Position numbers and translations under genes: made by a program. DNA of 64,000 nt from Lysobacter antibioticus (lineage in GTDB: Bacteria; Pseudomonadota; Gammaproteobacteria; Xanthomonadales; Xanthomonadaceae): contig NZ_JMTZ01000022.1 in assembly GCF_000731095.1 (NCBI RefSeq), forward strand, positions 1 through 64,000, in the 5' to 3' direction. Below, in pieces: positions 53,797 to 62,973 of the stretch (the first letter of the stretch is position 1; every line of letters starts with the position of its first letter). The notes under the pieces were generated by a model, which saw only the letters and a program-made list of their open reading frames with translations, did no database searches and was not told the origin of the DNA.

Positions 53797-56103
53797 ATGA
53801 AGCGCATGCTGATCAATGCGACGCAGGCGGAAGAACTGCGCGTCGCCATCGTCGACGGCCAATCCCTGTACGACATCGATATCGAACAGCCGTCGAAGGA
53901 ACAGAAGAAGTCCAACATTTACAAGGGCCGCATCACTCGGCTCGAACCTTCGCTGGAAGCGGCGTTCGTCGACTACGGCGCCGACCGCCACGGCTTCCTG
54001 CCGCTGAAGGAAATCTCCCGCGACTATTTCCAGCCCGGGGTCGACCATAACAAGGCCGGCTTGCGCGAGCTGTTGCGCGAAGGCCAGGAAATCGTCGTCC
54101 AGGTCGACAAGGAAGAGCGCGGCAACAAGGGCGCCGCCCTGACCAGCTTCATCTCCCTGGCCGGCCGCTACATGGTGCTGATGCCCAACTCCCCGACCGC
54201 CGGCGGCGTCTCGCGCCGGATCGAAGGCGAGGACCGCGCCGCGCTCAAGGACGCGATGGACAAGCTGACCATCCCCGACGACATGGGGGTGATCATCCGC
54301 ACCGCCGGCGTCGGCCGCGATGCCGAAGAACTGCAGTGGGACCTGGATTACCTGGTCAGCGTCTGGAAGGCCGTCACCGACGCCGCCCTGAGCAAGCAGG
54401 CCCCGTTCCTGATCTACCAGGAATCGCGCCTGATCATCCGCGCCCTGCGCGACTACATGCGTCCGGACATCGGCGAGATCCTGGTCGATACCGACGAGAT
54501 GTACGCCGAAGCGCGCGAGTTCGTCGAGCAGGTCATGCCGCACAACCTGCGCAAGCTGAAGAAGTACGCCGACGACACCCCGCTGTTCAACCGCTTCCAG
54601 ATCGAGTCGCAGATCGAGAACGCCTACGAGCGCACCGTCCGCCTGCCCTCCGGCGGCGCCCTGGTGATCGACCAGACCGAAGCCCTGACCGCGATCGACG
54701 TCAACTCGGCGCGCGCGACCAAGGGCGGCGACATCGAGGAAACCGCGTTCAACACCAACCTGGAAGCGGCCGAGGAAGTCGCGCGCCAGATGCGCCTGCG
54801 CGACCTCGGCGGCCTGGTGGTCATCGACTTCATCGACATGGCCTCCAACCGCCATCAGCGCGACGTTGAGAACCGCCTGCAGAACGCCCTCAAGCAGGAC
54901 CGCGCCCGCGTTCAGATCGGCCGCATCTCGCGCTTCGGCCTGCTCGAACTGAGCCGCCAGCGCCTGCGTCCGTCGCTCGGCGAGTCCAGCCAGTTGGTCT
55001 GCCCGCGTTGCGACGGCCACGGCCGTATGCGCAGCGTCGAGTCGATGTCGCTGTCGATCCTGCGCATCGCCGAAGAGCATGCGATGAAGGAGAACACCGG
55101 ACAGGTGCTGGTGCAGGCCCCGACCGAGATCGCCAATTACCTGCTCAACGAGAAGCGCCGCGCGCTGACCGAGATCGAACAGCGCCACGGCGCGCCGATC
55201 GTGATCGTCGCCGACGAGCAGCTCGAGACCCCGCATTACGAAGTCACCCGTGTGCGCGAAAACGAGATCGGCGAAGAGTCCTCCAAGCCCAGCTACCAGC
55301 GCGGCACCCAGCGCAAGCTGCCGCTGCATGCGCTGACCAAGGCCCATCTGAACATTCCGGATGCGCCGATCGTCACCAACGTCAAGCCGCTGCAACCGGC
55401 GCCGCTGCGCGAACCCCGCGAGCCCGCCGTGGCCGCGGCTCCCGCCCCGGCACCGGCGCCGGTCGCCGCGCCGACCCATTCGGTCGGTCTGGTCGAGCGC
55501 ATCCTGCGCATCTTCCGCGGCCCCTCGCAGCCCGCTCCGGCCCCGGCCGAACCGGCCGCGCGCAGTTCGGAAGGCCGCGGCCGCAACGACCGCAACGGCC
55601 AGCGCCGTGGCGAGAACCGCAACAACGCCGGCAAGGGAGGACGCGACGGCGGTCGCCGCGACGAGCAGCAGCGCCGCGATGAACCGCGTCGCGACGAGCA
55701 GCGTCGCGACAAGCCGGCGCAGAACGCCCAGCCGCAGGCCGCCCAGCACGCGACGAGCAGCGTCGCGACAAGCCGGCGCAGAACGCCCAGCCGCAGGCCG
55801 CCCAGCAGCCGCCCAAGCAGAAGCAGCCGCAAGCGCAGCAGCAGCCCAAGCCGCAGCAACCGCAGCAGGCGCAACAGCCCAAGCCGCCCAAGCCGCAGAA
55901 CGACGAGCGCGCCGCCCAGGCCGCCGGCGGGACCCCGCGTCCGCCGCGCGAACCCAGGCCGCCGCGCCAGGACGCTCCGGCTCCGGCTGAAGCCGTCAGC
56001 GCCGCGGCGATCGTGCCGGCCGCCGTGGCCGCCGCATCGGCCAGCGCCGGCGCTCCCATCGCCGTGCCGGCCGTGCCGAGCGTCAGCGACGAGACCGCAC
56101 TGA
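53797..56103 (+). CDS. rne: Ribonuclease E, C-terminal half lost by frameshift
   Basis: As written, this encodes 768 residues. The catalytic half is intact: S1 domain after [20 protein letters not shown], catalytic Asp residues in [13 protein letters not shown] (~301) and VVIDFIDM (~344), and the zinc-link CPRCDGHG (~402). From residue 651 the frame is wrong because of the 59-bp tandem duplication at 55691-55808, and the last ~118 residues are an Arg/Ser/Pro-rich out-of-frame tail ending at 56103. The normal C-terminal scaffold, about 476 residues with RNA-binding and degradosome-docking segments, lies in another frame at 55752-57236. Deleting one 59-bp copy gives one open frame of 1126 residues. 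In E. coli the catalytic half alone supports growth, so a true truncation could be viable. An assembly error is the main alternative. Confidence 0.93.
55691..55808 (+). repeat. 59-bp tandem duplication inside rne
   Basis: Copies 55691-55749 and 55750-55808 are identical over 58 bases and differ only at the last base (C versus G). Each starts GCGACGAGCAGCGTCGCGAC and encodes, in its proper frame, [18 protein letters not shown]. The unit length is not a multiple of three, so it shifts the reading frame by one base. The flanking region holds shorter repeats of the same RRDEQ-type codons, a good substrate for slippage. Confidence 0.93.
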
Positions 56104-57236
56104 AGACCGAAGTCGCTGTCGCGGCCGTCGCCGTCGACAATGCCGGCAGCGAGCCGCGCGACACCGACGAAGCCGCAGGCGAAGGCGGCGGCCGTCGCCG
56201 TCGTGGCCGCCGCGGTGGCCGTCGCCGTCGTCGTGGCAACGGTGAAGCCGCTGCCGGTGGCGAAGGTCAGGGCCAGGACGAGAACGCATTCGACGACGAA
56301 GACGAGATCGGCGGCGAACCCGCAGCGGCCCCGGCCGCGGCGAACCGTTCGCAGCCCGAGTTCGACTTCGACGACGAAGGCAGCGCACCGGCGCCGCGCG
56401 CCCAATCCACGGCACCCGCTGCTGCCGCAGTCGCTGCACCCGCAGCGGTTGCCGCCGTCGCCGCCAGCCGCGTCTACAGCCCGGCCCCGGAAACGGCGGC
56501 CGAGCCGAAGGCTTCGTTCGCGAACCTCGGCCACGAAGCCCAGCCTGCGGTCGGCGAGCCCGCCGCCAGCGAGCCGTCGTCCACGCAGCCGCAGATCGAG
56601 TCGGTCCGGGTCGAGCCCTCGCGCAACGCCTATGTCGCCGCCGAGCCGGTCGTGAACGAACACGTCGCTGAGCCCGTGCTGGAAGCGGCGATGCCGGTCA
56701 TCACCCGCCTGCCCGAGGAAGCGGTGGCGGTGCCTGCCGAAATCGTCACGCCTGCGCAGAGCGCCGTCGCCGCGATCGAACAGGCGCAGCCTGCCCTGCA
56801 ACAGCCCGCCCTGCAGGCTGCGGCGCCGCGCAACGAGGACGTCGAACCGGTCGTCGAGCCGACTTCGGCCCTGGTCGAAGAGACCCGCGTCGAGGACACC
56901 CTCGTCGAACAGGCCGTGATCGAGCAGACCCCGGTCGAATCGACCGTGATCGAGCCGGTGGCCCCGCCGGTACGGGTCGAGCCGAAGGCCGCTGCCGCTG
57001 AAGCCGCTTCGGTCGAAGCTGCTCCAGTCGAAACTGCCTCAGTCGAAACTGCTCCGGTCGAACCGGCCCAGGCCGACGCCGGCAACGCGGCGCCGGCAAC
57101 GACGCCGCGCACCGCTGGCCTGTTCGATGCCCTGCCCCATCCGGCCGAACCGGCCCGCACCGACGCGGCCAATGCCGCCGTCGAAGGCGAGCAGGATGCC
57201 ACCGACGGGTCGTCCGACGACGAGCGTCGCGCCTGA
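55752..57236 (+). pseudogene. rne: Out-of-frame C-terminal scaffold region of RNase E
   Basis: This frame carries the natural continuation of RNase [21 protein letters not shown], a basic RNA-binding cluster (GGRRRRGRRGGRRRRRGNGE), an acidic part (DENAFDDEDEIGGE), then a long Ala/Val/Glu-rich tail ending DDERRA. It has no start codon of its own with a ribosome-binding site; an ATG-less run from the duplication joins it. It is open to 57236, where the terminator follows. Unless translated separately, it is silent as the sequence stands. Confidence 0.85.
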
Positions 57237-61494: not shown

Positions 61495-62973
61495 ATGAAC
61501 GATCCGAACCGAGCGCCGGCGGACACCGCCGGATGGACCGACGCGCAGCGCGCTTTGTGGCAACGCCTGTGCGATTACCGATTCGACGACGACGATTCGA
61601 ACGAGTTCCTGACCCGCGTCGCGACGACCTCTCTGCTCGCTCTGAGCGAAGCGCGAGCGGCGCTCGACGAATACCGCCGCTTCTGTTTTCTCGCCGTCAC
61701 CGTCGCCCATGCGGTCACTCCCAGTCAGCTCGTCGACGAGGTCTGGCACACGCATATCGTCGACACCCGGCGCTACGAGCGCTTCCGCACCGAAGTGCTG
61801 CAGTACGACTTGCACCATGTGCCTTCGCGCGGCGGCGGCGGCGAAGAGCTGAAACACCAACGCCAGTACGCCGACACCATCGACAGCTACCGGCGTTTCT
61901 TCGGCCTGCCGCCGAACCGGTTCTGGCCGGAACCGCGCGCACCACGCCCGCCGTCGATCGCGGCCACCGTCGCGCTCGCTGAGCCGCGCGCACCGTGGCG
62001 GCCGATGCGGTTCGGCATCGTCGCCGTCGTCGGCACCTATGCGCTGTTGGCGTTGATCGCCAACGAGAGCAATCCGCTGCATTGGACCGGCGGCCTGTTC
62101 CTGGCCTGGTTCGTCGTCCTGATGGTCGCCGCGCTGATCGCCGGCTCCTGGCTGCGGCAAGGCATGCGCGGGCCGAACTGCCCGGGGCGGAGTCACGAGG
62201 CCGACCGTTGGGAGCTGGCCTATCTGTCCGGCGGCAGCGATCGTGTCGCCGACGCGATCGTGGTCGACCTGCTCGCGCGCGACGCGGTCAGCCTGGAGTA
62301 CGACCGCAAGAAGGCGCGCGAAGCCTACGAGAACGATCGCGTGTGGTTGCGCCCGCGCCTGCCCCCCGAGCAGCTCGAAACGCTGTCGCCGGTGCTGCGC
62401 GACGCTCTGGAAGTGGTCGCCGAGAAACAGACCCTCTCCCGAATCCTGTTGGCGCTCCGCGAACGTCATCGATCGCAGGACGAACACTTGCACCGCAAGG
62501 GCTGGCTGATGAGCCCGCGGCAGCAAGCCTGGGCGGCCTTGCTGTCGGCCCTGCCCCTGGCCGCGGTCGCCGCCCTGGGCCTGCGCAAGATCATGATCGG
62601 TCTGCAGCTGGAACGCCCGGTCGGGTTCCTCATCGCCCTGACCGTCCTGGCCGTGCTCATCGCACTGTTTCGCGCGCTATCGACCCAGGAGCGGCCCCGC
62701 ACCTGGGCCGGCGACTGGGAACTGTACAAAGCCGACCGGCAACGACGCGCAGACGGCAGCGATCCGGCCGCCACGGTCGCGCTGGCCGGCACGGCGGTCC
62801 TGATCGGCACCCCGTTCTCCGACTATCAACAGATCCGTACGCCCTCCTCGTTCAACAACGACGGCAGCGGAGGTGGCGGCGATGGAGGAGGTGGCGACGG
62901 CGGCGGAGGCGGAGGTTGCGGCGGCGGAGGCGGAGGTTGCGGCGGCGGCTGCGGTGGCTGCGGCGGAAGTTGA
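61495..62973 (+). CDS. GRDP-like/TIGR04222-type membrane protein with Gly-Cys-rich tail
   Basis: 492-residue protein. The ATG at 61495 follows GAGGG with a 6-base gap; ATGs at 61474 and 61489 are alternatives. The N-terminal ~140 residues resemble the glycine-rich-domain-protein (GRDP) fold, with VDEVWHTHIVDTRRYERFRT. Two membrane segments follow (FGIVAVVGTYALLALIANES, LFLAWFVVLMVAALIAGSWL), a soluble domain of ~150 residues (LSGGSDRVADAIVVDLLARD), two more membrane segments, and a C-terminal tail of Gly runs with single Cys residues (positions ~470-492). Tails of this kind are typical of TIGR04222 proteins; their role is unknown to me. Confidence 0.75.
   Translation: MNDPNRAPADTAGWTDAQRALWQRLCDYRFDDDDSNEFLTRVATTSLLALSEARAALDEYRRFCFLAVTVAHAVTPSQLVDEVWHTHIVDTRRYERFRTEVLQYDLHHVPSRGGGGEELKHQRQYADTIDSYRRFFGLPPNRFWPEPRAPRPPSIAATVALAEPRAPWRPMRFGIVAVVGTYALLALIANESNPLHWTGGLFLAWFVVLMVAALIAGSWLRQGMRGPNCPGRSHEADRWELAYLSGGSDRVADAIVVDLLARDAVSLEYDRKKAREAYENDRVWLRPRLPPEQLETLSPVLRDALEVVAEKQTLSRILLALRERHRSQDEHLHRKGWLMSPRQQAWAALLSALPLAAVAALGLRKIMIGLQLERPVGFLIALTVLAVLIALFRALSTQERPRTWAGDWELYKADRQRRADGSDPAATVALAGTAVLIGTPFSDYQQIRTPSSFNNDGSGGGGDGGGGDGGGGGGCGGGGGGCGGGCGGCGGS

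Follow-up and report, generated by a model that had tools for sequence, protein, structure and literature searches.

Does the sequenced strain of Lysobacter antibioticus make an RNase E that has lost its C-terminal scaffold, or does the break in its rne gene exist in the draft assembly only? The question is raised by the window, i.e. the 64-kb stretch of DNA analyzed here, in which the rne frame (53797-56103, 768 codons and a stop; all coordinates at this locus refer to the plus strand) encodes the catalytic part of RNase E and, after a duplication, runs on out of the ancestral frame. Its product matches the Pfam families RNase_E_G (341.6 bits), RNase_E_G_Thio (113.1 bits) and S1 (35.6 bits) as well as two NCBIfam models, TIGR00757 (536.6 bits, above the cut-off) and PRK10811, the ribonuclease E equivalog (901.3 bits, slightly below the curated cut-off of 908). 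The RNase E/G catalytic domain and the S1 domain that characterize an RNase E are both present. A further characteristic, a C-terminal scaffold half that continues the catalytic frame, is found in the single-contig congener G005; here, that half occupies positions 55809-57236 in a different frame (475 open codons, 55809-57233, and a stop). Aligned to the C-terminal half of the G005 enzyme, it is identical in 421 of 492 columns (86%). Searched alone, it has no match in Pfam or NCBIfam, which is no surprise in a scaffold that is disordered. Upstream of the duplication, the catalytic frame includes a candidate amphipathic segment of 13 residues (55483-55521), which we take to be a possible membrane anchor. 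In this assembly, a Gly/Arg-rich block (GGGRRRRGRRGGRRRRRGNG; 56184-56243), presumably RNA-binding, does not share the frame of the catalytic part.

An earlier note on this DNA had attributed the break to a 59-base tandem duplication, and this reading of the deposited sequence stands: the frame opened at 53797 ends after 768 codons, a different frame carries the C-terminal half on to 57236, and the arithmetic of the note holds, as the span measures 3440 bases and 59 is not a multiple of three. By eye, an inverted repeat with a T-run just past 57280 also resembles a terminator, an element that the note had placed just after 57236. The duplication itself consists of two abutting copies, 55690-55748 and 55749-55807, and was recovered both by TRF (55690-55807, period 59, 2.0 copies, 100% matches) and by an exact-run scan, in which a period-59 run of 59 bases begins at 55690. 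The copies are hence identical at 59 of 59 positions; the earlier coordinates, 55691-55808, lie one base too far to the right, and this displaced start accounts for the 58 of 59 given there. Not a single matching base extends beyond the unit on either side of the joint. A scan of the whole 64-kb window for tandem units of 15-400 bases with an exact run of at least the unit length returned two entries, namely the rne duplication and, at 62898, a 21-base array. A GC-rich perfect hairpin (55688-55710) with a stem of nine pairs and a loop of five bases is located at the left edge of the 59-base unit; its folding energy as DNA is -12.3 kcal/mol (z -3.24 against shuffles).

What do related genomes contain at this position? 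The comparison of rne with close relatives that the note had called for was run across the joint in G005. The first 631 residues of the G005 enzyme are identical to those encoded in the window, the 59-base stretch occurs once and at the same place, and rne is one continuous open frame of 1133 codons. A DNA search found a match in every one of the 20 available genomes of the genus, including this one, the alignment at the joint being that of G005 only. An open frame of at least 1119 codons containing rne is present in 18 of the 19 congeners; the exception is the draft G010, with 835 codons. In that draft (contig C139, L007), 540 bases separate the start of the contig from the rne match, and the C-terminal half runs into the contig edge; assembly of the rne region may be difficult in other drafts as well. 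For the N-terminal part, the comparison with G005 gives a dN of 0 and a dS of 0.084 (631 codons). For the C-terminal half, dN is 0.046 and dS is 0.162 (464 codons); therefore, constraint acted on this half at least until a short time ago.

The duplication at rne is not an isolated case in this genome (G000), which comprises 5,527,310 bases in 168 contigs. Together with 76 further stretches, the window makes up a sample of 1,562,752 bases (28% of the genome), in which we counted units of at least 30 bases present in two fully exact copies. Twelve such duplications were found, with units of 31-67 bases: 59 in the window, 45 at L122, 41 at L123, 57 at L128, 40 each at L129 and L183, 61 at L201, 66 at L202, 38 at L289, 56 at L299, 31 at L300 and 67 at L306. 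According to the same criterion, none occurs in 864,000 bases from six congeners, neither in the single-contig genomes G005, G001, G007 and G016 (464,000 bases, 24 stretches) nor in the drafts G010 and G006 (400,000 bases, 20 stretches). Duplications made by assembly would be expected to recur in one assembly and to be missing from comparable ones, and both are observed. For the 11 duplications found beyond the window, the probability that every one falls in this genome is 0.0067; it is 0.05 against the single-contig controls alone and 0.07 against the drafts alone. The spread is patchy, with 4, 3, 0 and 4 duplications in samples a, b, c and d, of which sample c covers 378,752 bases.

The stricter criterion had been adopted before samples c and d and both draft controls were scanned. 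These data yield four duplications in 778,752 bases against none in 400,000 bases, which points in the same direction and is not significant alone. A looser first scan (units from 25 bases, exact run of at least the unit length minus one) had additionally returned a 27-base unit at L189, a 30-base unit with a run of 29 at L193 and a 28-base unit at L202 in this genome, all left out of the twelve, and one 73-base array with a run of 72 (L177) in a control genome, also left out of the count. Further arrays were found in both sets when imperfect repeats (at least 88%) were admitted, with samples c and d and the drafts outside the scope of that scan. The sites L123 and L183 were kept among the twelve, even though they resemble natural arrays with degenerate neighboring copies. 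Over all twelve sites, the joints share a mean of 1.17 extra bases, compared with 0.78 expected for a blunt joint; exact copies and a joint devoid of microhomology, a second mark of duplications made by assembly, are found here.

The hairpin, too, recurs. In the unit and the 20 bases on its left, a perfect stem of at least eight pairs is present at 8 of the 12 sites, and three of these stems are stronger than that at rne (20 pairs at L122, 14 at L129 and 13 at L289); those at L123, L183, L299 and L306 have four to seven pairs, and the hairpin at L201 folds no better than its shuffles (z -1.0). In a background of stretches drawn at random from this genome and not matched for G+C, such a stem is present in 139 of 4000 cases at 75 bases (3.475%), 111 of 3000 at 77 bases and 121 of 3000 at 81 bases. 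The G+C content of the duplicated units is high (0.62-0.90), and more hairpins are to be expected by chance for this reason.

All sites but L123, L183 and L289, nine of the twelve, were compared with G005. At six of these nine, G005 is shorter by exactly one unit: by 59 bases at rne, 45 at L122 (in gaps of 23 and 22), 40 at L129, 61 at L201, 56 at L299 (412 versus 356 bases) and 31 at L300 (360 versus 329 bases). At L128, the difference is 42 bases and not 57; the alignment at L202 failed to cross the duplication site, and the search for L306 in G005 found nothing. One of these six is L201:5655-5776 (contig C12), where an exact 61-base duplication lies between a tRNA and a gene for NADH-quinone oxidoreductase subunit A, identified by a family match below the curated cut-off: over 301 bases, the aligned positions are identical to G005, and the second copy is the sole difference.

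Four duplications could be placed in coding frames. Three of them (rne, L299 and L300) shift a frame that is continuous in G005, and one (L122) is in frame; this proportion is as expected if reading frames are not respected, although four cases are few. At L299:11546-11657 (contig C30), an exact 56-base duplication breaks a gene similar to diaminopropionate ammonia-lyase; both pieces match the ammonia-lyase family, partially and below the cut-off, and a single frame of 391 residues in G005 aligns in two frames flanking the duplication. At L300:19517-19578 on the same contig, an exact 31-base duplication breaks a minus-strand gene that is a continuous frame of 409 residues in G005; one piece has a weak match to a fucose operon activator (24.2 bits against a cut-off of 259). 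The in-frame case is L122:10233-10322 (contig C6), where an exact 45-base duplication on the 20-pair hairpin adds 15 residues to the protein-disulfide reductase DsbD (dsbD; 695.9 bits).

Considering these results, we believe that the second 59-base copy most likely reflects an error of the draft assembly rather than a true loss of the RNase E tail. A GC-rich hairpin such as that at 55688-55710 is difficult to read in sequencing; probably, two contig ends, both carrying the 59-base stretch, were set head to tail with their overlap left unmerged, and the living strain would then possess an ordinary full-length rne like that of G005. Such overlapping contig ends are suggested by several features in combination: the copies are exact, the joints lack microhomology, hairpins are frequent, and the duplications recur in this one assembly but are absent in relatives. 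Among the three options that the note had offered, i.e. recent loss, reversible switch and assembly artefact, the last is hence the best supported (12 versus 0 in recurrence, hairpins at 8 of 12 sites, a single copy in G005 at 6 of 9), while the switch fares poorly. Likewise, the claim that the RNase E scaffold is cut off is true of the deposited sequence, but of that only.

Some observations count against an artefact. The units range from 31 to 67 bases, and one fixed k-mer overlap was rejected as the cause on the grounds of this variation. The 1,562,752 bases of this genome contain no N characters, so scaffold gaps are not visible. Contig breaks at hairpins, sought within 75 bases of the start of 17 contigs, received no direct support: a stem of nine pairs is present in 4 of the 17, and the starts are not clearly placed at hairpins. 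By eye, 11 of the 17 contig starts share a few dispersed-repeat themes. Positions 1-75 of the window and the starts of contigs C2, C5, C11 and C13 have a common one, a CCTGTCCCGATGAAAAACGG-like core with a hairpin, and at least four other contigs begin in a second theme (GCAAAAGAAAGTAACCC).

The alternative that survives best, although we regard it as rather unlikely, is that the sequenced strain really carries this duplication and acquired it recently; it would then make an RNase E of 768 residues. Such an enzyme would retain the catalytic core as well as the possible membrane segment, end in out-of-frame residues and lack both the Arg-rich block and the distal scaffold. The deposited sequence does read so, the C-terminal half still looks constrained, as expected for a very recent break, and viability would be no obstacle, E. 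coli mutants without the C-terminal region being described as viable (PMC13390384). Against this alternative stand the similar exact duplications that recur in this assembly and are absent from the controls, and the two further genes broken in the same manner (L299 and L300). Hairpins are generally known to provoke true rearrangements as well, and the genome encodes Ku. In an extended form, which we hold to be somewhat more doubtful still, the strain would be undergoing a burst of tandem duplications of 31-67 bases at GC-rich hairpins, joined without microhomology, one of which would just have removed the RNase E scaffold and others broken further genes; perhaps hairpin cleavage, fill-in and Ku-dependent joining would be involved. 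The Ku gene is located on contig C38 (25042-25596, 143.7 bits), and given its presence the organism may be capable of non-homologous end joining.

A reversible length switch, in which slippage between the copies toggles the RNase E scaffold in the population, appears very improbable to us. Two identical 59-base copies could, as is generally known, recombine, slip or revert. The 59-base stretch is present once in G005 and twice in the deposited sequence. The joint at rne lacks a direct repeat that could seed slippage in a phase-variable repeat; since no base matches past the unit, slippage between direct repeats was also rejected as the origin of the duplication. Furthermore, the single copy in G005 speaks against a switch, as do the long rne frames that are open in 18 of the 19 congeners. 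Programmed frameshifting that restores full-length RNase E across the duplication is the least credible of all, for although both halves are open and the C-terminal half is constrained relative to G005, that genome with its one copy and one continuous frame has no need of recoding, and the constraint is equally explained by a duplication that is recent or unreal.

As biology, the locus is of low interest; it is a useful warning about this assembly. If the duplication is an assembly error, as we consider likely, one should refrain from citing this genome as an example of RNase E truncation in nature, and its other broken genes, of which two more were seen, are equally suspect. Exact tandem duplications that are free of microhomology and lie on hairpins would then provide a cheap error flag for GC-rich drafts. 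A real duplication would make the strain a degradosome-loss mutant that arose naturally, and would point to an unusual mutation process. Among the literature matches listed, we recognized no report of this genome or of a tandem artefact in this hairpin-linked form.

Two known systems allow a comparison. False duplications in genome assemblies have been reported for vertebrates (PMC9516828), where they reportedly involve haplotype duplication. The likeness lies in sequence that is doubled by assembly and leads to false conclusions at the gene level; unlike those vertebrate cases as described there, the present ones are short exact tandem units on hairpins in the draft of a haploid bacterium. 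The other system is E. coli RNase E, for which C-terminal truncations such as rne131 are described (PMC13390384). If the duplication were real, the strain would resemble rne131 in that the catalytic part is kept and the C-terminal scaffold is gone; however, rne131 is a laboratory allele, whereas the tandem duplication seen here is exact, comes from a draft genome and is probably not real.
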